Positions 1,686-34,082 of a stretch of 64,000 nt of DNA are shown here, one piece after another. The notes under the pieces were generated by a model. It did no database searches, was not told the origin of the DNA, and was given only the letters and a program-made list of their open reading frames with translations. The number at the start of each line of letters is the position of its first letter. Position 1 is the first letter of the stretch. The DNA lies in NCBI RefSeq assembly GCF_029952955.1, contig NZ_JASATX010000002.1, positions 307,316 to 371,315 of the forward strand, read 5' to 3'. The stretch comes from Ruicaihuangia caeni. GTDB lineage: Bacteria; Actinomycetota; Actinomycetes; Actinomycetales; Microbacteriaceae. The position numbers and the translations under genes were made by a program.

Positions 1686-3438
1686 CGCCGCAGACCGCTC
1701 CGAACAGCCCTCCGACGGGGCTCCAGGCGACGCCGTCGCAGCCTCGATCGATACCGGCGAGAGCGACACCGACCTCGTCGACACCGCACTTTCCGCTGAG
1801 ACGGATGCGGGGGCGGATGCCGAGGCATCCGGTGCCGCGAACACTCCCGACGCGACGGTCGGCGCCCCTGGCACCGCGGCGCGGCCCGTGCTCGTCGTCG
1901 ACTTCGGTGCGCAGTACGCGCAACTGATCGCGCGGCGCGTGCGCGAGGCGAACGTGTACTCGGAGATCGTGCCGCACACGATCAGCGCGGCGGAGGTCGC
2001 GGCGAAGAACCCGGCCGGCATCGTGCTCAGCGGTGGCCCGTCGAGTGTGTACGAGACCGGTGCGCCCGCGCTCGATCCGGGCATCGTCGAGCTCGGTGTG
2101 CCGATGCTCGGCATCTGCTACGGATTCCAGGTCATGGCGAAGCAACTCGGCGGCGAGGTCGCGAAGACCGGCCAGCGCGAGTACGGAGCGACTCCTGTCG
2201 CGGTGAGCGGCGACGGCGGCGACCTGCTGGCCGGGCAGCCCGCGACCCAGACCACCTGGATGAGCCACGGCGACTCGGTCGTGCGCGCGCCGGAAGGGTT
2301 CTCTGTGCTGGCGTCGACGGCGTCGACGCCGGTGGCCGCATTCGCCCACGACCAGCGAAAGCTCTACGGCGTGCAGTGGCACCCCGAGGTGAAGCACTCC
2401 GAGTTCGGCCAGCGCGTCATCGAGAACTTCCTGCATCGAGCGGCCGGCATCCCGGCCGATTGGAACGCGGGCAATGTCATCGCCGAGCAGGTCGAGCGTA
2501 TCCGCGCCCAGATCGGTGACGGGAAGGTCATCTGCGGACTCTCCGGTGGCGTCGACTCGGCAGTGGCCGCAGCGCTCGTGCACAAGGCGGTCGGCGACCA
2601 GCTCGTCTGCGTGTTCGTCGACCACGGGCTGCTGCGCAAGGATGAGCGCCGCCAGGTACAAGAGGACTACGTCAAGGCGACGGGCGTGCGCCTGGTGACG
2701 GTCGACGCCGAGCAGCAGTTCCTCGACGCGCTCGTCGGCGTGAGCGACCCTGAGCAGAAGCGCAAGATCATCGGGCGCGAGTTCATCCGCACCTTCGAGC
2801 AGGCCGAGCGTGAGCTCGTCGCCGAAGCGGCCTCGGAAGGGGAGCCGATCCGCTTCCTCGTGCAGGGCACGCTCTACCCCGACGTCGTCGAGTCGGGCGG
2901 CGGCAGCGGCACGGCGAACATCAAGAGCCACCACAATGTCGGCGGGTTGCCTGAAGACTTGCAGTTCGAGCTGGTCGAACCGCTGCGCACGCTGTTCAAG
3001 GACGAGGTGCGCGCGATCGGCCGCGAACTCGGGCTCCCCGAGGAGATCGTCAACCGTCAGCCCTTCCCGGGCCCTGGTCTCGGCATCCGCATCGTCGGCG
3101 AGGTGACGAAGGACCGTCTGGAACTGCTGCGGGATGCCGACGCGATCGTGCGCGAGGAGCTCACCGCGGCGGGGCTCGACACCGAGATCTGGCAGTGCCC
3201 GGTCGTGCTGCTCGCCGATGTGCGCTCGGTGGGTGTGCAGGGCGATGGACGCACCTACGGTCACCCGATCGTGCTGCGCCCTGTCTCGTCTGAAGACGCG
3301 ATGACCGCCGACTGGACGCGGTTGCCCTACGACGTGCTCGCGCGCATCTCGAACCGCATCACCAACGAAGTGCGCGACGTCAACCGCGTCGTGCTCGACG
3401 TCACCTCAAAGCCCCCCGGCACCATCGAGTGGGAATGA
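1675..3438 (+). CDS. guaA: GMP synthase (glutamine-hydrolysing)
   Basis: GuaA aminates XMP to GMP using glutamine and ATP, the last step of guanine nucleotide synthesis. The class I amidotransferase domain has the nucleophile Cys148 in GICYG and His236/Glu238 in WHPE. The ATP pyrophosphatase loop SGGVDS is at 290-295, and the protein ends with the usual KPPGTIEWE. The core begins only near residue 70. Before it lies an acidic, Ala/Asp/Thr-rich stretch with no ATG. Possible starts are TTG 1675, CTG 1678, ATT 1681 or GTG 1888. A GGAGG at 1670-1674 is best spaced (6 nt) for ATT 1681, while GTG 1888 falls within the first core strand and would truncate it. So a real N-terminal extension is likely. 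Confidence 0.95.
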
Positions 3439-3483
3439 CGGCGCGTTCATGAGGGCCCTTTCGGGCCCTCATGCGCCGTCATT
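3434..3483 (+). terminator. Long hairpin terminator overlapping the guaA stop codon
   Basis: Arms AATGACGGCGC (3434-3444) and ATGAGGGCCC (3449-3458) pair with GGGCCCTCAT (3463-3472) and GCGCCGTCATT (3473-3483) around a TTTC loop, with one 4-nt bulge. The stem totals 21 bp and includes the TGA of guaA. There is no T tract. Confidence 0.8.
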
Positions 3484-3486
3484 CCC

Positions 3487-3546
3487 GGTTCGACGTCTCG
3501 GCGAACCGTCGCGGCTTCAACCTCGCCAACCGCACGCCTGCCAGGT
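3487..3546 (+). repeat. GTCTCG-loop stem-loop repeat, copy A
   Basis: A hairpin GGTTCG / CGAACC (3487-3507) with GTCTCG in its loop is followed by GTCGCGGC, a variable part, and the conserved end CGCACGCCTGCCAGGT (3531-3546). Copies B and C share the loop, the GTCGCGGC word and the CTGCCAGGT end, while the stem changes with compensating bases. Confidence 0.65.
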
Positions 3547-3601
3547 CTAACCCCACGACTTGGCGGGCCCTCGGGATCGCCGAGTCCGCGTGTTCGTTCC
3601 C

Positions 3602-3662
3602 GGTCGGGCGTCTCGCCCGACCGTCGCGGCCGCAGGCACTCGCGACAGCACGTCTGCCAGGT
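3602..3662 (+). repeat. GTCTCG-loop stem-loop repeat, copy B
   Basis: The stem is GGTCGGGC / GCCCGACC (3602-3609 and 3615-3622) with a GTCTC loop. GTCGCGGCCGCAGGCACT, CGCGAC and the shared CTGCCAGGT end follow. It is nearly the reverse complement of copy C at 4237-4297. Confidence 0.7.
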
Positions 3663-4236: not shown

Positions 4237-4297
4237 ACCTGGCAGGCGTGCGGTCGCGAGTGCTTGCGGCCGCGACGGTCGGTCGAGACGACCGACC
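4237..4297 (-). repeat. GTCTCG-loop stem-loop repeat, copy C (inverted)
   Basis: Read on the minus strand this matches copy B: a GGTCGGTC / GACCGACC stem (4277-4284 and 4290-4297) with the GTCTC loop, the GTCGCGGCCGCAAGCACT block and the CGCACGCCTGCCAGGT end. It sits directly beside the BI-1 terminator hairpin. Confidence 0.7.
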
Positions 4298-4350
4298 GAG
4301 TGATCAAGCGCGACGGCCAGAAATGGCCCTCGCTGGGAGCTTGATCACTC
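4298..4350 (-). terminator. Nested hairpin terminator of the BI-1 gene
   Basis: A perfect 12-bp outer stem GAGTGATCAAGC (4298-4309) / GCTTGATCACTC (4339-4350) encloses an inner stem GCGACGGCC / GGCCCTCGC (4310-4318 and 4325-4333) with loop AGAAAT. The outer stem contains the BI-1 stop codon (4345-4347). The AGAAAT loop and GCGACG stem recur in the repeats flanking icd. Confidence 0.8.
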
Positions 4351-5175
4351 CGAACCGCGCAGGATCGCGATGAGGCGCAGGATCTCGAGGTACAGCCACA
4401 CCACGGTGACCAGGATGCCGAAGGCCGCCTGCCAGCCGTAGACGCGGGGCACGCCGCGCTCGACGCCCGTCTTGATGTTCTCGAAGTCCATCACGAGCGA
4501 GTACGCCGCGAGCAGCACGACGAGCACGCCGAGCCAGGCGCCAAGGGGCAGACCGAGGAACTCGACGCTGCGCAGGCCGAACATGCCGTCGGTCACGCCG
4601 AAGATCATGAGGCCGAAGTTCACGAGCGAGAACGCCGCGTAGCCGATCATCGCGACGAGGAAGATCCGCGTGAGCTTCGGAGTGGCGCGCACCTTGCCGC
4701 TCGCGAAGAGCGCGAGGGTCACGCCGACGACCGCGAGGGTTCCGAGCAGCGCCTGCGTGACGATGCCTTCCCACATGGTCGAGAAGAGGTACGAGATGCC
4801 GCCGACGAAGACGCCCTCGACAGCCGCATAGGCGAGGATCAGCCCCCGCGAGGGCTGCTTCTTGAAGACGTTGACGAAGCCGAGCACGAGCCCGACGAGC
4901 GCGGCGGGAAGCGCTAGCACAGGCACGAACCAGCCCACCGCAGCGCCGAGCAGCAGCACACCGAAGCTGATGACGATCTTCATGATCGTGTCTTCGTACG
5001 TCATGCGCTCCGCCTCGGGCAGCACGGGGGCTGCGGGCGCGAGCGGTGCAGTGCCGGCGGGGCGGTCCTGGTCGGTCGCCGAGGGGCGGCCGTAGAGCTC
5101 GTTGAGCTGCTCCACGGTCATGCTCGGCGCCTTGCCGCTGAACGCGGGCGAGTTGCTGAATGCAGGGTTGGCCAT
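4345..5175 (-). CDS. Bax inhibitor-1/YccA family membrane protein
   Basis: This 276-residue protein has about 80 N-terminal cytoplasmic residues, including SMTVEQLNELYGRPSAT and MTYEDTIMKIV, then seven hydrophobic helices, as in the BI-1/YccA (UPF0005) family. Some members conduct calcium or modulate membrane proteases; the role in actinobacteria is not known. ATG 5175 is chosen because AAGGAG lies a suitable distance upstream. Longer reading into the upstream region has no family support. The stop codon is built into the terminator hairpin. It is monocistronic and separated from the next minus-strand gene by about 45 bp. Confidence 0.9.
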   Translation of the reverse strand: MANPAFSNSPAFSGKAPSMTVEQLNELYGRPSATDQDRPAGTAPLAPAAPVLPEAERMTYEDTIMKIVISFGVLLLGAAVGWFVPVLALPAALVGLVLGFVNVFKKQPSRGLILAYAAVEGVFVGGISYLFSTMWEGIVTQALLGTLAVVGVTLALFASGKVRATPKLTRIFLVAMIGYAAFSLVNFGLMIFGVTDGMFGLRSVEFLGLPLGAWLGVLVVLLAAYSLVMDFENIKTGVERGVPRVYGWQAAFGILVTVVWLYLEILRLIAILRGSE

Positions 5176-5219
5176 GGCGAGGGGTCTCCTTCGATCGCCG
5201 TGCGAGTCTTCATGACAAT

Positions 5220-5777
5220 CTATCGGAACGATGGTGTCCGGTGGCTGTGGATTCGCCTCACTCCCGCGATTTTCCGCGCAACCAGGGCCGATCCGGCGAT
5301 GACTGCCATCGCCCCGGCGAGGGCGGGGAGCAGTTGCGAGTACTCGGAGAAGACGGATGCCGCGAACACTCCGTACGCGATGACGAACAGCCCCGTCACG
5401 TAGCTGCGCAGCGGGCGATGGCGCACGAGCAGCCACGCGAGGTAGGGCACGATCAGCGTCCACATCGACTGCGGTCCGGTGAGGATCAACCAGATCTGCA
5501 CGCCGCAGGGAAACACGACGACGTGGCGCCGCCATCCCGCAGCCGGCATGATCCACCAGCCCACGACGTGCGCCACGGTCCCGGTGATCAACGGCAGCAG
5601 GAAGGTCGTACTGGCCGCTTGCAGCCCGATCATGCCCCCCACGATGAGCGCCGCACCCGCGATCGAGCGGCCCTGCCAGGTGCCCCAGCGCAGCGGAAGG
5701 GCCATGGTGGGCTCTGCCATCTGCCCGCCGCCGCGGGGTGGCTCGTCGGCGACTTGCTTCGGGGCACGGCGCGGCAT
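5220..5777 (-). CDS. Unrecognised five- to six-helix membrane protein
   Basis: From the ATG at 5777 this gives about 185 residues: a short basic/polar N-terminus, then hydrophobic segments around GAALIVGGMIGLQAASTTF, TGTVAHVVGWWIMPAAGW, the QIWLIL region, a segment before RHRPLRSYVTG, and two near the end. The C-terminus is basic. I do not recognise a family. ATGs at 5807, 5831 and 5885 are also in frame, but the last would overlap the divergent GDPD start and its promoter, and the extra residues are low-complexity. It lies immediately upstream of, and may be cotranscribed with, the BI-1 gene. Confidence 0.6.
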   Translation of the reverse strand: MPRRAPKQVADEPPRGGGQMAEPTMALPLRWGTWQGRSIAGAALIVGGMIGLQAASTTFLLPLITGTVAHVVGWWIMPAAGWRRHVVVFPCGVQIWLILTGPQSMWTLIVPYLAWLLVRHRPLRSYVTGLFVIAYGVFAASVFSEYSQLLPALAGAMAVIAGSALVARKIAGVRRIHSHRTPSFR

Positions 5778-29978: not shown

Positions 29979-30434
29979 TTATAGCTCGAGGGCCCCGATG
30001 TTCTCGCCGTATGCGGTTTCACCGATGACCTTGAAGCCAACGCTCTTGAAGAACTGCTCCGGCCCCTTGTCGCCCGGCTCCCAGATCACGGTGAGCCGCT
30101 TGAAGCCGCGCGACCGCGCCTCGTCGGCGAGCGCGAGCACAGCGAACCGGCCGACACCGAGCCCCTGCTGGTCGGCCGCGACGTGGATGCGCCAGATGCA
30201 GCTGCGGAAGTACTCCTGCTCGGCATCCGGATCGAAGTTGCCGCGGATGAACCCGACGACGTGGTCGTCACCGTCGACCACCACGCGCGGCCAGGAGGTC
30301 ACCGGGTTGATGTATGCGTCTGCGATCGCGTACGAGGGCGGGGAGATGAACTGCTCCTGCCCCGGGCGCAGCGTGAGGCTGTTCGCCGCGACGATGTTCT
30401 TCGCCGACAGTTCTTCCAGTCGCAGCTCGGTCAT
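29979..30434 (-). CDS. GNAT family N-acetyltransferase
   Basis: This 151-residue GNAT has the acetyl-CoA pyrophosphate loop in QQGLGVGRFAV (motif A, Q/R-x-x-G-x-G/A) preceded by WRIHVAADQ, and motif B around PEQFFKSVGFKVIGE. The N-terminus RLEELSAKNIVAANSLTL and DPDAEQEYF suggest the spermine/spermidine acetyltransferase-like branch, but the substrate is not certain. ATG 30434 is the conserved start. It lies 13 bp from the MGMT-like gene on the same strand and may share its transcript. Confidence 0.85.
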   Translation of the reverse strand: MTELRLEELSAKNIVAANSLTLRPGQEQFISPPSYAIADAYINPVTSWPRVVVDGDDHVVGFIRGNFDPDAEQEYFRSCIWRIHVAADQQGLGVGRFAVLALADEARSRGFKRLTVIWEPGDKGPEQFFKSVGFKVIGETAYGENIGALEL

Positions 30435-30529
30435 GGCCACAGGGTAATCCTTCTGCCCATCTTCGCGGTGGATCTTCGTCGTCCTCGAGGTGAAGGAGCC
30501 GCCACGCTCCAAGAAGATATCTCGACACG

Positions 30530-30583
30530 AGCGCGCTGGAGCTTGGAGCGACGACCATTTCTGGTCGTCGCCGCGACGCCAGC
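30530..30583 (+). repeat. AGAAAT-loop compound repeat, copy X (left of icd)
   Basis: This 54-bp core is 49/54 identical to the reverse complement of 32044-32097. It has a perfect 9-bp stem GCGACGACC / GGTCGTCGC (30548-30556 and 30563-30571) with loop ATTTCT. A second hairpin GATGGCC-GTCTC-GGCCATC follows. A degenerate TATCTCGAC half-site at 30518-30526 abuts it. Confidence 0.7.
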
Positions 30584-30642
30584 GCCGATGGCCGTCTCGG
30601 CCATCGGAAGACGGCAACCCAGCATCCGCCGTGCCGGAAAAA

Positions 30643-30681
30643 TATCTCGACATCGAGAGATCTAGCGAGGTCGCGTAACAT
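30643..30681 (+). promoter_or_regulatory. icd promoter with TATCTCGACATCGAGA operator
   Basis: TATCTCGACATCGAGAGA (30643-30660) is an almost perfect 18-bp palindrome. A TAACAT -10 box at 30676-30681 puts the -35 region (about 30653-30658) inside the palindrome, so binding there would block polymerase. Two related sites lie in front of sucCD. Confidence 0.6.
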
Positions 30682-30704
30682 GGTCGGCGGTCAAAGGAGA
30701 GGAC

Positions 30705-31925
30705 TTGCCCGTGGAAAAGATCAAGGTCGAAGGCACCGTCGTCGAGCTCGACGGCGACGAGATGACGCGCATCATCTGGCAGAAGATCAAGGACTCGCTC
30801 ATCCACCCGTATCTCGACCTCAACCTCGAGTACTACGACCTCGGAATCGAGCACCGTGACGCCACCGACGACCAGGTGACGATCGACGCCGCGCACGCCA
30901 TCCAGAAGCATGGCGTAGGCGTCAAGTGCGCCACCATCACCCCAGATGAGGCCCGCGTCGAGGAGTTCGGCCTCAAGAAGATGTGGAAGAGCCCGAACGG
31001 CACGATCCGCAACATCCTCGGCGGCGTGATCTTCCGCGAGCCGATCATCATCTCGAACATTCCGCGCCTGGTGCCCGGATGGAACAAGCCCATCATCATC
31101 GGGCGCCACGCCTTCGGCGACCAGTACCGCGCGACCGACTTCCGCTTCCAGGGCGAGGGCACGCTGACCGTCGAGTTCACCCCGAAGGACGGCTCGGAGC
31201 CGCAGAAGTTCGAGGTGTACCAGTCGCCCGGCGACGGCATCGCGCAGGTGCAGTACAACCTCGACGCGTCGATCCGCGACTTCGCTCGCGCGTCGCTCAA
31301 CTACGGCCTCAGCCGCAAGTACCCCGTGTACCTGTCGACGAAGAACACGATCCTCAAGGCGTACGACGGCCGGTTCAAGGACATCTTCCAGGAGATCTAC
31401 GACACCGAGTTCAAGGAGCAGTTCGAGGCGGAGGGGCTCACCTACGAGCACCGGCTCATCGACGACATGGTCGCATCGGCCATGAAGTGGGAGGGCGGCT
31501 ACGTCTGGGCGTGCAAGAACTACGACGGCGATGTGCAGTCCGACACGGTGGCGCAGGGCTTCGGCTCGCTCGGTCTCATGACCTCCGTGCTCAGCACTCC
31601 TGACGGCAAGGTCGTCGAGGCGGAGGCGGCGCACGGCACCGTCACCCGCCACTACCGCCAGCACCAGCAGGGCAAGCCCACCTCGACGAACCCGATCGCT
31701 TCGATCTTCGCGTGGACCCGTGGCCTGCAGCACCGCGGCAAGCTCGACGGCAACCAGGCCCTGATCGACTTCGCGCTGACGCTTGAAGACGTTGTCATCA
31801 AGACCGTCGAGTCAGGCGCGATGACGAAGGACCTCGCCCTGCTCGTCGGCCCCGAGCAGCAGTGGCAGACAACCGAGGAGTTCCTCGCGACCCTCGACGA
31901 GAACCTCAAGGCGCGGCTCGCCTGA
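30705..31925 (+). CDS. icd: NADP-dependent isocitrate dehydrogenase
   Basis: Icd converts isocitrate to 2-oxoglutarate and CO2 with NADPH formation. The 406-residue protein is of the eukaryote-like homodimeric type: [14 protein letters not shown] at the N-terminus, [47 protein letters not shown]-like substrate segment, [26 protein letters not shown] (Tyr/Lys/Asp catalytic residues, in parts) and [15 protein letters not shown] 30705 has AGGAG at 5 nt spacing; GTG 30711 is an alternative. Two inverted copies of a stem-loop repeat flank it, and a TCA-type operator covers its promoter. Confidence 0.96.
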
Positions 31926-31939
31926 GCCGAGCGCACCGC

Positions 31940-31981
31940 CGAGAACGGCGCCCCTCCCTCGGGAGGCGGGCGCCGTTCTCG
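31940..31981 (+). terminator. icd terminator
   Basis: CGAGAACGGCGCCC (31940-31953) pairs perfectly with GGGCGCCGTTCTCG (31968-31981), followed by TTTG, 14 bp after the icd stop. Confidence 0.85.
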
Positions 31982-32042
31982 TTTGCGGTGGGGTCGTGCG
32001 ATGGCCGAGACGACCGAGCCGGGCGCCGAGACGGCGCCAGGG

Positions 32043-32097
32043 GCTGGCGTCGCGGCGACGACCAGAAATGCTCGTCGCTCGTGGCTTCAGCGCGCTG
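32043..32097 (-). repeat. AGAAAT-loop compound repeat, copy Y (right of icd, inverted)
   Basis: Reverse-complement partner of copy X. The stem is GCGACGACC / GCTCGTCGC (32055-32063 and 32070-32078, one mismatch) with loop AGAAAT. To its left are a GGCGCC-GAGAC-GGCGCC hairpin (about 32021-32039) and a GATGGCCGAGACG half-hairpin. The order of hairpins is the same as at 4277-4333. Confidence 0.7.
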
Positions 32098-32150: not shown

Positions 32151-34082
32151 ATGCGGTGGTTCGGGCAGGCGGTGCGTCACTACCCCGTAGTGGCGATCAC
32201 GCTCGCCATCGGCGCGGTGTCGCTCGTGCTCACACAAACGGATGCTGCCGCCGCTGTGCCCTGGATCGTCAGCGTCTACACCCTCGCCGTGGCAGCCCGC
32301 GCGGGGTGGAGCATGGTCCGCTCGTTGCTGTCGGGCCAGATCGGGCTCGACCTCTTGGCGGTCACCGCGATCATCGCGACCGTGGCAGTCGGCGAGTACT
32401 GGGCGAGCCTCGTCATCGTCTTGATGCTCTCGGGTGGCGAGGCGCTCGAGGACTATGCCGCTGGGCGCGCGAAGCGCGAGCTCAATGCGCTGCTCGAGCG
32501 AGTGCCGCAGCAGGCGCACCTCATCGTCGACGGAGACGAGACGCGGGTTCGCGACATCCTCGTCGGCGATGTCGAGCCCGACGACGAGTTGCTGATCCGT
32601 CCTTCTGAGATCGTGCCGGTCGATTGCGAGTTGGTCAGCGCCGAGGCGACCGTCGATGAGTCGTCGTTGACCGGGGAGAGCCTGCCGGTCGAGCGACACC
32701 AAGGTGAGCTGCTGTTGAGCGGCTCGGTCAACGGATCCTCGGCGATCCGAGTGCGCGCCGCCGCCTCTGCGGCCGACAGCCAGTACCAGCGGATCATCGA
32801 CCTGGTGCGCGAGGCATCCGAGAGCAAAGCCCCGATCGTGCGGCTCGCCGACCGCTACGCGCTGCCGTTCACGCTCGTCGCGTATGCGATCGCCGGTGTC
32901 GCCTGGCTGGTCTCGGGTGACCCGGTGCGATTCGCCGAAGTGCTGGTCGTCGCGACTCCCTGCCCGCTGCTCATCGCCGCGCCCGTGGCGTTCATGGCGG
33001 GGATGAGTCGTGCGGCGAAGGCGGGTGTCGTCGTCAAGAACGCGGGCACTCTCGAGCGGCTCGCCAGAGCCCGAACCGTCGCATTCGACAAGACTGGGAC
33101 GCTCACTCACGGCCAGCCCGAGGTGGTCTCGATCCTGCCGGCACCCGGCACGGGTATCGGTGACGCGGAGCTGCTCCGGCTTGTCGCCTCGGCCGAGCAG
33201 TACTCGTCGCATGTGCTCGCCGAGTCGCTCATGCGTGCGGCGAACGAGCGCGGTCTCACCCTGATCGCGGCGGAGTCCGCGAGCGAGGTCGCGACCAACG
33301 GGGTGGCCGCCGTGCTCGACGGTCGTCGAGTGGTGATCGGAAAGCCGCGGTTCGTGGCCGAGAACACCGGCAGCTTCGACCCGGTCGAGCTCGGCGCCGG
33401 TGAACTCGCCGTGTATGTCGGCGTCGATGGCCGCTACGCGGGCGCGGTGGTGCTGCGCGACAGGCTGCGCCACGAGGCGCATGACACGCTCGACGCGCTC
33501 ACGCGGTTCGGCGTGGCCGAGACGCTCATGCTGACCGGTGACACTGAGGCGACCGCCAGACAGATCGCCGCCCAGATCGGCATCACGGAGGTGGCGGCCG
33601 ACCTGCTTCCCGAGGACAAGGTGCGCATCGTGAAGGGGGCGACACCGAAACCCGTGGTCATGGTCGGCGACGGTGTGAACGACGCGCCGGTGCTCGCCGT
33701 CTCCGACGTCGGCATCGCGATGGGCGCGCGTGGCTCGACAGCGGCGAGCGAATCGGCCGACGTCGTGGTGCTGATCGACGACCTCAGCCGTGTTGCGACC
33801 GCCGTCGCCATCGGGCACCGCACCGTAGCGATCGCGCTGCAGAGCATCTGGATCGGGATCGCGTTGAGCGTCGTGCTGATGGTCGTGGCGGCCTTCGGGC
33901 TGCTGCCCGCGATCGTCGGCGCGACGCTGCAAGAGGTCATCGACCTGGTGACCATCGTCGCCGCTCTTCGGGCGCTCGCGCCGGGTCGCGACCGCCGCTT
34001 GGCTGGCGTGAGCCAGGGTGCGGCGCCGGCGACCACGCGAGACCAGGCGAGATCGGGCGTCGACCAGGCGCTCGAGCGCTAG
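32151..34082 (+). CDS. Heavy-metal-type (P1B) P-type ATPase without metal-binding domain
   Basis: This 643-residue ATP-driven metal transporter has the P1B transport motif TPCPLL (Cys271), TGES in the actuator, phosphorylated Asp313 in DKTGTLT, MLTGD and GDGVNDAPVL. The P1B histidine region reads SSHVLAESL where many have HP. There is no N-terminal HMA or CXXC metal-binding domain; the protein starts almost directly at the first helices. The ion could be zinc, cadmium, cobalt or copper and cannot be read with certainty. ATG 32151 is the likely start. Its stop shares a CTAG palindrome with the stop of the convergent P-type ATPase. Confidence 0.88.
   Translation: MRWFGQAVRHYPVVAITLAIGAVSLVLTQTDAAAAVPWIVSVYTLAVAARAGWSMVRSLLSGQIGLDLLAVTAIIATVAVGEYWASLVIVLMLSGGEALEDYAAGRAKRELNALLERVPQQAHLIVDGDETRVRDILVGDVEPDDELLIRPSEIVPVDCELVSAEATVDESSLTGESLPVERHQGELLLSGSVNGSSAIRVRAAASAADSQYQRIIDLVREASESKAPIVRLADRYALPFTLVAYAIAGVAWLVSGDPVRFAEVLVVATPCPLLIAAPVAFMAGMSRAAKAGVVVKNAGTLERLARARTVAFDKTGTLTHGQPEVVSILPAPGTGIGDAELLRLVASAEQYSSHVLAESLMRAANERGLTLIAAESASEVATNGVAAVLDGRRVVIGKPRFVAENTGSFDPVELGAGELAVYVGVDGRYAGAVVLRDRLRHEAHDTLDALTRFGVAETLMLTGDTEATARQIAAQIGITEVAADLLPEDKVRIVKGATPKPVVMVGDGVNDAPVLAVSDVGIAMGARGSTAASESADVVVLIDDLSRVATAVAIGHRTVAIALQSIWIGIALSVVLMVVAAFGLLPAIVGATLQEVIDLVTIVAALRALAPGRDRRLAGVSQGAAPATTRDQARSGVDQALER

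Follow-up and report, generated by a model that had tools for sequence, protein, structure and literature searches.

SINE-type retroposons, which spread by target-primed reverse transcription, encode no protein and leave a precise 3' end, a ragged 5' junction and a long target duplication of variable length. MITEs of DDE transposons are short, non-autonomous and dispersed, and carry terminal inverted repeats and a duplication of fixed length. Many short palindromic repeats of bacteria have no known means of spread. According to the available parts of the paper on the REP super-family, in which Actinobacteria are not mentioned, CGTC REPs have no dedicated transposase and consist of the motif CGTC, a stem of 8-9 bp that almost always starts with A-T pairs, a loop of 4-5 nt and a CCA-like tail (PMC3733652). 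Three Actinomycetota are named in the accessible passages of another paper (PMC12306157). Finally, the hairpin elements of Allomyces lack flanking duplications, according to the accessible part of a paper on sponges (PMC2800124).

The window analysed here is a stretch of 64,000 nucleotides from Ruicaihuangia caeni (Microbacteriaceae; contig NZ_JASATX010000002.1, positions 307,316 to 371,315), in which an earlier note had described inverted copies of a compound stem-loop repeat on both sides of icd. None of the three Actinomycetota mentioned above presumably belongs to this family. The icd gene encodes an isocitrate dehydrogenase (30705..31925, + strand; Pfam Iso_dh, E 5.5e-62) and is indeed flanked by two copies of one element. 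Element A is a full 78-nt copy on the minus strand (30531..30608; 103.8 bits, E 1.6e-18, the E-values of the element model being rough here and below), with its hairpins P1 at 30585-30608 and P2 at 30533-30584, and occupies the spacer of a divergent gene pair formed by a GNAT acetyltransferase gene (29979..30434, -; Pfam Acetyltransf_1, E 1.7e-11) and icd (+). Element B, another full-length copy (32018..32095, +; 84.4 bits, E 1.1e-14), lies downstream of icd and before a P-type ATPase gene (32151..34082, +; Pfam E1-E2_ATPase, E 2.8e-44); its internal loop has three base changes and its stems are partly broken. The identity of 49/54 that had been reported between the inverted cores was reproduced with the second core at 32043-32096, whereas the register first given for it (32044-32097) yields 7/54. 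Ungapped comparison of the inverted copies gives 86% complementarity across 72 bp, and over the full 78-nt length A and B are identical at 64/78 positions. Element A has a weak candidate target duplication of 11 nt (TGTCGAGATAT; score 11, near chance level), with a 3'-side copy 3 nt away from the element end (30517..30527, -) and a 5'-side copy (30642..30652, -; score 11), after which come 33 nt of filler.

In total, four copies are present in the window, one of which had been missed before. The third loop that had been seen at 4310-4333, beside the BI-1 gene, exists and is part of a diverged copy, element C (4275..4350, +; 64.4 bits, E 1.1e-10), which retains P1 and the inner stem-loop, has a perfect 12-bp stem in place of the outer stem, and overlaps with its 3' end the stop codon of the gene for the Bax inhibitor-1 like protein (4345..5556, -; Pfam BaxI_1, E 3e-71). 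The hairpins with GTCTC loops noted next to these cores correspond to P1 seen from the reverse strand (GAGAC on the element's own strand). The copy that had been overlooked, element D (3429..3509, -; 52.4 bits, E 2.5e-8), is diverged and has a GAAA loop and a different outer stem, and a P1 hairpin with an unmatched inner part, probably a relic, is found at 3571..3624 (-; 25.9 bits, E 0.0045). C and D form a second inverted pair, in which P1 and the GAAA hairpin are kept and the outer stems, of 12-13 bp, are unrelated; they may represent a subfamily, or element hairpins nested within other palindromes.

The proposal that the inverted pair around icd forms a mobile unit was abandoned, because the P1 stems of A and B differ and single elements move alone (see below), and the flanking of icd looks incidental. 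Genome G281 has two inverted element pairs around other genes, which we take from their translations to be nhaA and a sigma/anti-sigma pair. Homologues of icd share a fetched stretch with the element in three genomes (loci L079 and L150, and 30711-31922 of the window), a co-occurrence that may be due to chance.

One explanation would be chance palindromes in GC-rich DNA. The GC content is high, and the loop letters are unremarkable by themselves (AGAAAT occurs five times in the window, as against 5.5 expected). This explanation is nevertheless refuted, its probability being practically nil: (i) the 24-nt hairpin occurs three times in the window at up to 3 mismatches and 0 times in 100 dinucleotide shuffles, (ii) E-values in the genome searches are as low as 4e-17, and (iii) the same core recurs in 68 genomes. 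The near-constant loops with changing but matched stems mark a real family, as had been supposed.

The element is a 78-nt double hairpin in which P2 directly follows P1. P1 has a 10-bp stem and a loop GAGAC or GGGAC; P2 is composed of a constant outer stem (CGCTGG/CCAGCG), an asymmetric internal loop, a variable inner stem of some 10 bp that is capped by a GAAA tetraloop. In 186 copies, collected with a model of the full element, the ends are sharp at positions 1 and 78, and no U-tract was found at them. The termini (NCCG.. and ..GCGCGC) are not inverted repeats. No conserved GTAG was found beside the stem, 15 flank columns on the 3' side holding at most 0.17 bit, and CTAC is present beside some copies only.

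Further copies, for which the earlier note had suggested a search of the genome and its relatives, proved to be numerous. In the 2.67-Mb genome of R. caeni, model R1, built from nine copies, recovered at least 23 copies at E<0.01 among the 150 of 5776 candidates that were scored. Within the Microbacteriaceae, 68/299 genomes from 32/85 genera match at E<=0.001, including Agrococcus lahaulensis (G264) and Pseudolysinimonas kribbensis (G010), and nine of these 68 carriers, R. caeni among them, reach the limit of 15 scored candidates. Agrococcus G302, in contrast to other members of its genus, gave no match to the element. The two sampled congeners of R. caeni had no match at E<=0.001, and an order-level sample of 248 genomes gave none except R. 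caeni itself. Across 84,980 species genomes, 99 stretches were picked out by a pattern scan, from genera that include Agrococcus, Pseudolysinimonas, Microcella, Salinibacterium, Leucobacter, Homoserinibacter, Herbiconiux and Cryobacterium, as well as from broadly labelled MAGs (e.g. 'Actinomycetota') and from one labelled Acidobacteria (G067), which was placed in the family of the window. The element was not matched in phages, plasmids or viral contigs. Rfam gave 0 matches in the window and five for loci L001-L006 (E 0.31-3.3), all below gathering scores, and no description of this element family was found in the open-access literature.

Several other arrangements of repeats were observed. The genome of R. 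caeni has a tandem array (L089 4322-4634; C1:399321-399633) of three units at 81 bp spacing and a shorter fourth unit without the constant internal-loop region. In the flanks of G281 (L076-L086), a second palindromic repeat (GGTTTCGATAACG..GGCTTCG..CTACTCAACC) recurs at many copies; several elements of this genome lie inside it, and hybrid units have one arm replaced by the element. Furthermore, a hairpin repeat (ACAACGCAAGC...GCTTGCGTTGTGC) is present downstream of the same gene in L297, L304 and L309 (Agrococcus G300, G173 and G310).

The changes in the stems are matched. In an alignment of 108 distinct copies, made by fitting them to the model and biased in its favour, 97.1% of the cells are paired and 27/29 pairs show changes on both sides; when the partner is slid by 1-3 columns, paired cells fall to 29.5-45.3%. 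A MAFFT alignment of nine copies gives 94.2% paired cells, with 10/29 pairs changed on both sides. The stems thus covary in both alignments, the absence of which had been named beforehand as a ground for discarding the family. Such covariation, together with the GNRA-like loops, the constant internal loop and a location just past stop codons and at tRNA ends, could be explained by a functional RNA (a terminator, a 3'-end stabiliser or a protein-binding hairpin) selected at each site. This explanation is considered improbable, since the element ends without a U-tract, its presence varies among related species, down to the two congeners without a match, and wobble pairs in the variable stems are no commoner than other mismatches.

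Indeed, P1 and P3 of 176 distinct copies contain 3420 Watson-Crick pairs, 17 G-U pairs and 83 other mismatches, the constant pairs G37-T62 and T33-G67 being excluded as invariant. G-U pairs represent 16-19% of the departures in P1/P3, compared with 16% in background hairpins and 2/12 types under blind mutation, whereas 19 tRNAs used as a control have 13 G-U pairs and 0 other mismatches. T-tailed hairpins, a further control, gave 6 G-U pairs and 17 other mismatches, which is too few. P2 has 187 G-U cells, mostly from T33-G67. As wobble pairs in P1 and P3 are no commoner than chance, the variable stems look as if they were kept at the DNA level, where their pairing would be restored or required, with the reserve that the constant G37-T62 and T33-G67, if they are real wobble pairs, would favour RNA, as would the GNRA-like loops. 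The 'RNA structure' proposed in the earlier note therefore holds as to the conservation of pairing and fails as to a preference for G-U over other mismatches in the variable stems, a preference that tRNAs do have. More generally, a wobble count of this kind is a simple test between hairpin covariation due to RNA selection and that due to DNA palindrome repair.

Template switching is a known source of matched hairpin changes, according to the accessible part of PMC8794818. In the orthologous copies of G264 and G306, the inner stem has been altered in place and in a matched way, and the copy at the same gene in G300 is mismatched. Loop inversion, which would be expected from free template switching, was seen in 0 cases versus 178 for P2 and in 0 versus 143 for P1, in a sample partly selected for the GAAA loop.

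The mobility of the repeat, suspected from the inverted copies, is established by two empty sites and by flanking duplications. At the first site, located after one gene in Agrococcus, the element is present in G264 and G306, and in G309 the flanks adjoin each other with an overlap of 42 nt, this overlap being the stretch duplicated around the G264 element. At the second site, located at a terminator, the G173 element lies between two 22-nt copies and the G264 flanks are contiguous with an overlap of 26 nt; the element is also absent from this site in G309, but the downstream flank is there about 2.8 kb away. The element is thus present in one species and absent, with an intact target, in a relative at two sites, and is mobile.

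Among the 169 copies with a canonical 3' end, 21 have flanking duplications scoring at least 16 (18-40 nt, filler 0-28 nt), against 0.14 expected from mismatched flanks; copies and sites share descent, so these counts are not independent. At scores of at least 11, 24 duplications were obtained, of which 16 are flush with the 3' end of the element and the others 1-3 bases off; the filler, made of unrelated nucleotides (0-37 nt), separates the upstream duplication from P1. In 14/16 flush cases, the upstream copy is preceded by a C, which is also the last base of the element. A later set of 84 Agrococcus copies has four duplications scoring at least 14 (15-43 nt), against 0.15 expected. A duplication is visible in about one of eight copies, and in one of twenty in the later set. 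The duplications are not all separate events, because some sites are orthologous: L127 and L252 are orthologous, and L167 and L381 seem to represent a single gene end in two species. Inverted repeats between the flanks are weakly enriched (9/202 at a score of at least 12, versus 1.1 expected), and several of them are terminators or other repeats. At L298 (Agrococcus G301), the final 13 nt or so of the element alternate in tandem with a target stretch, a decay form of an insertion.

The copies were placed relative to genes, all gene calls for placement, junctions and run-in genes (also in the later set) being based on an ORF and codon-position heuristic: 70 lie between convergent, 81 between co-directional and 13 between divergent genes, and 42 were called within an ORF, for the most part probably a false one. 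For 11 of the 23 duplications listed, the end of a sense gene is no more than 45 nt away from the upstream junction. The end of the stop codon lies within -5 to +2 of that junction in 10/11 of these cases (L167 is at +10), or in 10/17 if six open sense frames that continue for 59-599 nt past the junction (L067, L097, L129, L203, L223 and L239), and that were taken as chance, are counted as genes. Of 200,000 simulations that assumed a uniform null chosen by the author, 1 reached the 10/11 clustering, and the junction-to-stop values of the later Agrococcus set are -1, -7, 0 and -2 (n=4). On these small numbers, duplications that reach over a sense gene's end have their upstream junction at the stop codon. 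At L124, L103, L237 and L073, the duplication ends within the stop codon and the filler creates a different stop.

Of the other 12 duplications, that of L239 extends to the first C of a tRNA-Ser CCA; the filler completes this CCA and the downstream copies are without it, which is only suggestive of an RNA intermediate. At L127 and L252, the upstream junction is at a terminator tail. L204, where a partial tRNA-His copy precedes the element, was rejected as a tRNA-end case, since its duplication extends 6 nt beyond CCCCA. No stop codon, tRNA or terminator end was found for 8/23 duplications, two of which (L082 and L085) lie within another repeat. Elements also abut the 5' ends of sense tRNAs, at -1 to +3 nt in 5/6 close cases; none of these five copies is among the 24 scored duplications, and some lie outside the 169. 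At L267 (G067), a tRNA-Ile and a tRNA-Ala, neighbours as in an rRNA operon spacer, each stand directly behind an element that ends at the tRNA 5' end. At L153 and L064 (Microcella), a tRNA-Gly-like fragment that is cut off past the anticodon arm comes after the element and may be a carried-over 3' flank or a decayed tRNA.

Element copies also alter gene ends, by supplying stops to genes that run into them. Among 132 antisense genes running into the 3' side of the element, 13 stop at +1 and 19 in a variable triplet at +15 to +17, and this triplet provides stops in each of the three frames. The placement must owe something to selection for intact genes, because divergent spacers are rare (13 versus 70 convergent) and run-in genes stop at these positions. 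The stop-codon clustering may derive in part from such selection.

The search for a mobilising enzyme gave the following results. RVT_1 (PF00078) was found in 55 of 299 genomes, in 6/68 carriers versus 49/231 others (p 0.02, towards depletion), and was not found in R. caeni or in G010, G227 and G253, with the limits that G010 is only 86% complete and that remote reverse transcriptase families could be missed. The perfect duplications of L106, L191 and L067 lie in G010, G227 and G253. A resident reverse transcriptase is thus not supported as a partner, having no positive association with the element and not being found in these genomes with perfect duplications. End-joining was rejected as a requirement (Ku in 48/68 carriers versus 138/231 others, p 0.12), and no Ku match was obtained in G127 and G275, which have 14 and 15 scored copies. 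Y1_Tnp (PF01797; RAYT/IS200) was likewise rejected, as it occurs in 3/299 genomes, of which G012 is the sole carrier. No autonomous gene stood out beside the copies among 876 ORFs from 119 loci and the window; the largest cluster of neighbouring ORFs (25 ORFs from 18 loci) presumably consists of ABC ATPases, and DDE families were covered only through such ORF clusters. A transposase with matching ends, for which the earlier note had suggested a search, was not found (Y1_Tnp in 299 genomes; ORFs around 119 loci and the window). A REP- or MITE-like DNA element moved in trans by a Y1 (RAYT) or DDE transposase would account for short palindromic multi-copy repeats that lie mostly past gene ends, as is told of REPs. 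With Y1_Tnp so rare, no transposase-like cluster near the loci, duplications of variable length (15-43 nt) and no terminal inverted repeats, this origin is regarded as very unlikely.

As reverse transcriptase, Y1 and Ku do not track the element and no mobile gene is adjacent to it, the best remaining reading is a host polymerase that uses a small RNA or ssDNA of the element as its substrate. A precise 3' end, a ragged 5' end with extra bases and a long variable duplication are the marks left when a discrete single strand is copied in by target priming. With moderate confidence, the repeat is interpreted as a short non-autonomous mobile double hairpin of Microbacteriaceae, of which a single strand is joined by its 3' end and copied in, the stems being restored at the DNA level. 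In brief, a discrete 78-nt single strand (RNA or ssDNA) would join a chromosomal nick or gap via its own 3' end, its last C usually being common to the target; the copied strand would then add filler or jump to a neighbouring RNA or strand at its 3' end, and would so produce the variable duplication. P1 and the inner stem of P2 would drift as matched pairs through template switching during replication, which restores the palindrome, or alternatively through a requirement for a perfect single-stranded DNA hairpin. Copies last mostly beyond stop codons, the site of least harm. The element may be described as REP-like and transposase-less, a double hairpin whose insertion signature is retroposon-like; its enzyme and its RNA intermediate are inferred.

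The main rival to this reading is host replication error. In this case, an existing copy would serve during repair as the template in microhomology-mediated template switching, without any discrete mobile molecule, and the polymerase would return tens of nt upstream and so create the duplication. Several observations are in line with it: the last C common to the target in 14/16 flush cases, a match of 6 nt at the L191 5' junction and one of 5 nt between the G173 element and the empty G264 site, the truncated copies with tandem duplications in G301, the tandem array in R. caeni, and the fact that no associated enzyme was found. Pure template switching is nevertheless disfavoured, because it would be expected to move arbitrary segments and both ends of the family are sharp (in copies found with the full-element model); we consider it possible but rather unlikely. 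The same doubt applies to a bolder form of the preferred reading, copying of a discrete single strand, in which the element would be the equivalent of SINEs in bacteria: a structured RNA of 78 nt that is copied into the chromosome, either by a polymerase of the host or by a reverse transcriptase not yet recognised, and jumps to the 3' ends of mRNAs cut at stop codons, of tRNAs and of terminators. If this SINE-like reading were true, the insertions would mark RNA ends.

The insertion signature (presence/absence, exact ends, duplications) is readable and differs from that of REPs and MITEs, and since carriers are culturable, the spread of transposase-less palindromes becomes testable. The element is filed here as a short, transposase-less, palindromic mobile repeat, retroposon-like in its insertion signature, a designation that stops short of the status of a retroposon. 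As described in the available parts of PMC3733652, GTAG and CGTC REPs are also short, palindromic and multi-copy and lie past gene ends and between convergent genes; the element differs from the REPs described there in its two linked hairpins, its length of 78 nt and its long target duplications, and in having no GTAG at the stem and no Y1 transposase. CGTC is present at positions 31-34, but the element falls outside the definition of CGTC REPs given in the same source, as its inner stem is longer, begins with G/C pairs and is not followed by CCA. It resembles the mitochondrial double-hairpin and repetitive hairpin-forming elements, which are mobile short intergenic hairpins according to the accessible parts of PMC7218506 and PMC2800124, and differs from the mitochondrial elements of Allomyces, as portrayed there, in its bacterial host and in the flanking duplications of some copies. 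Like MITEs, it is short, non-autonomous and dispersed; unlike them, it has no terminal inverted repeats, and its duplications are of 15-43 nt instead of a fixed length. From SINEs it is set apart by its bacterial host, by having no poly(A) or simple 3' tail and by having no partner reverse transcriptase among those searched for, and it shares with them a precise 3' junction, a long variable duplication and a ragged 5' junction in those copies, a minority, in which a duplication is retained.
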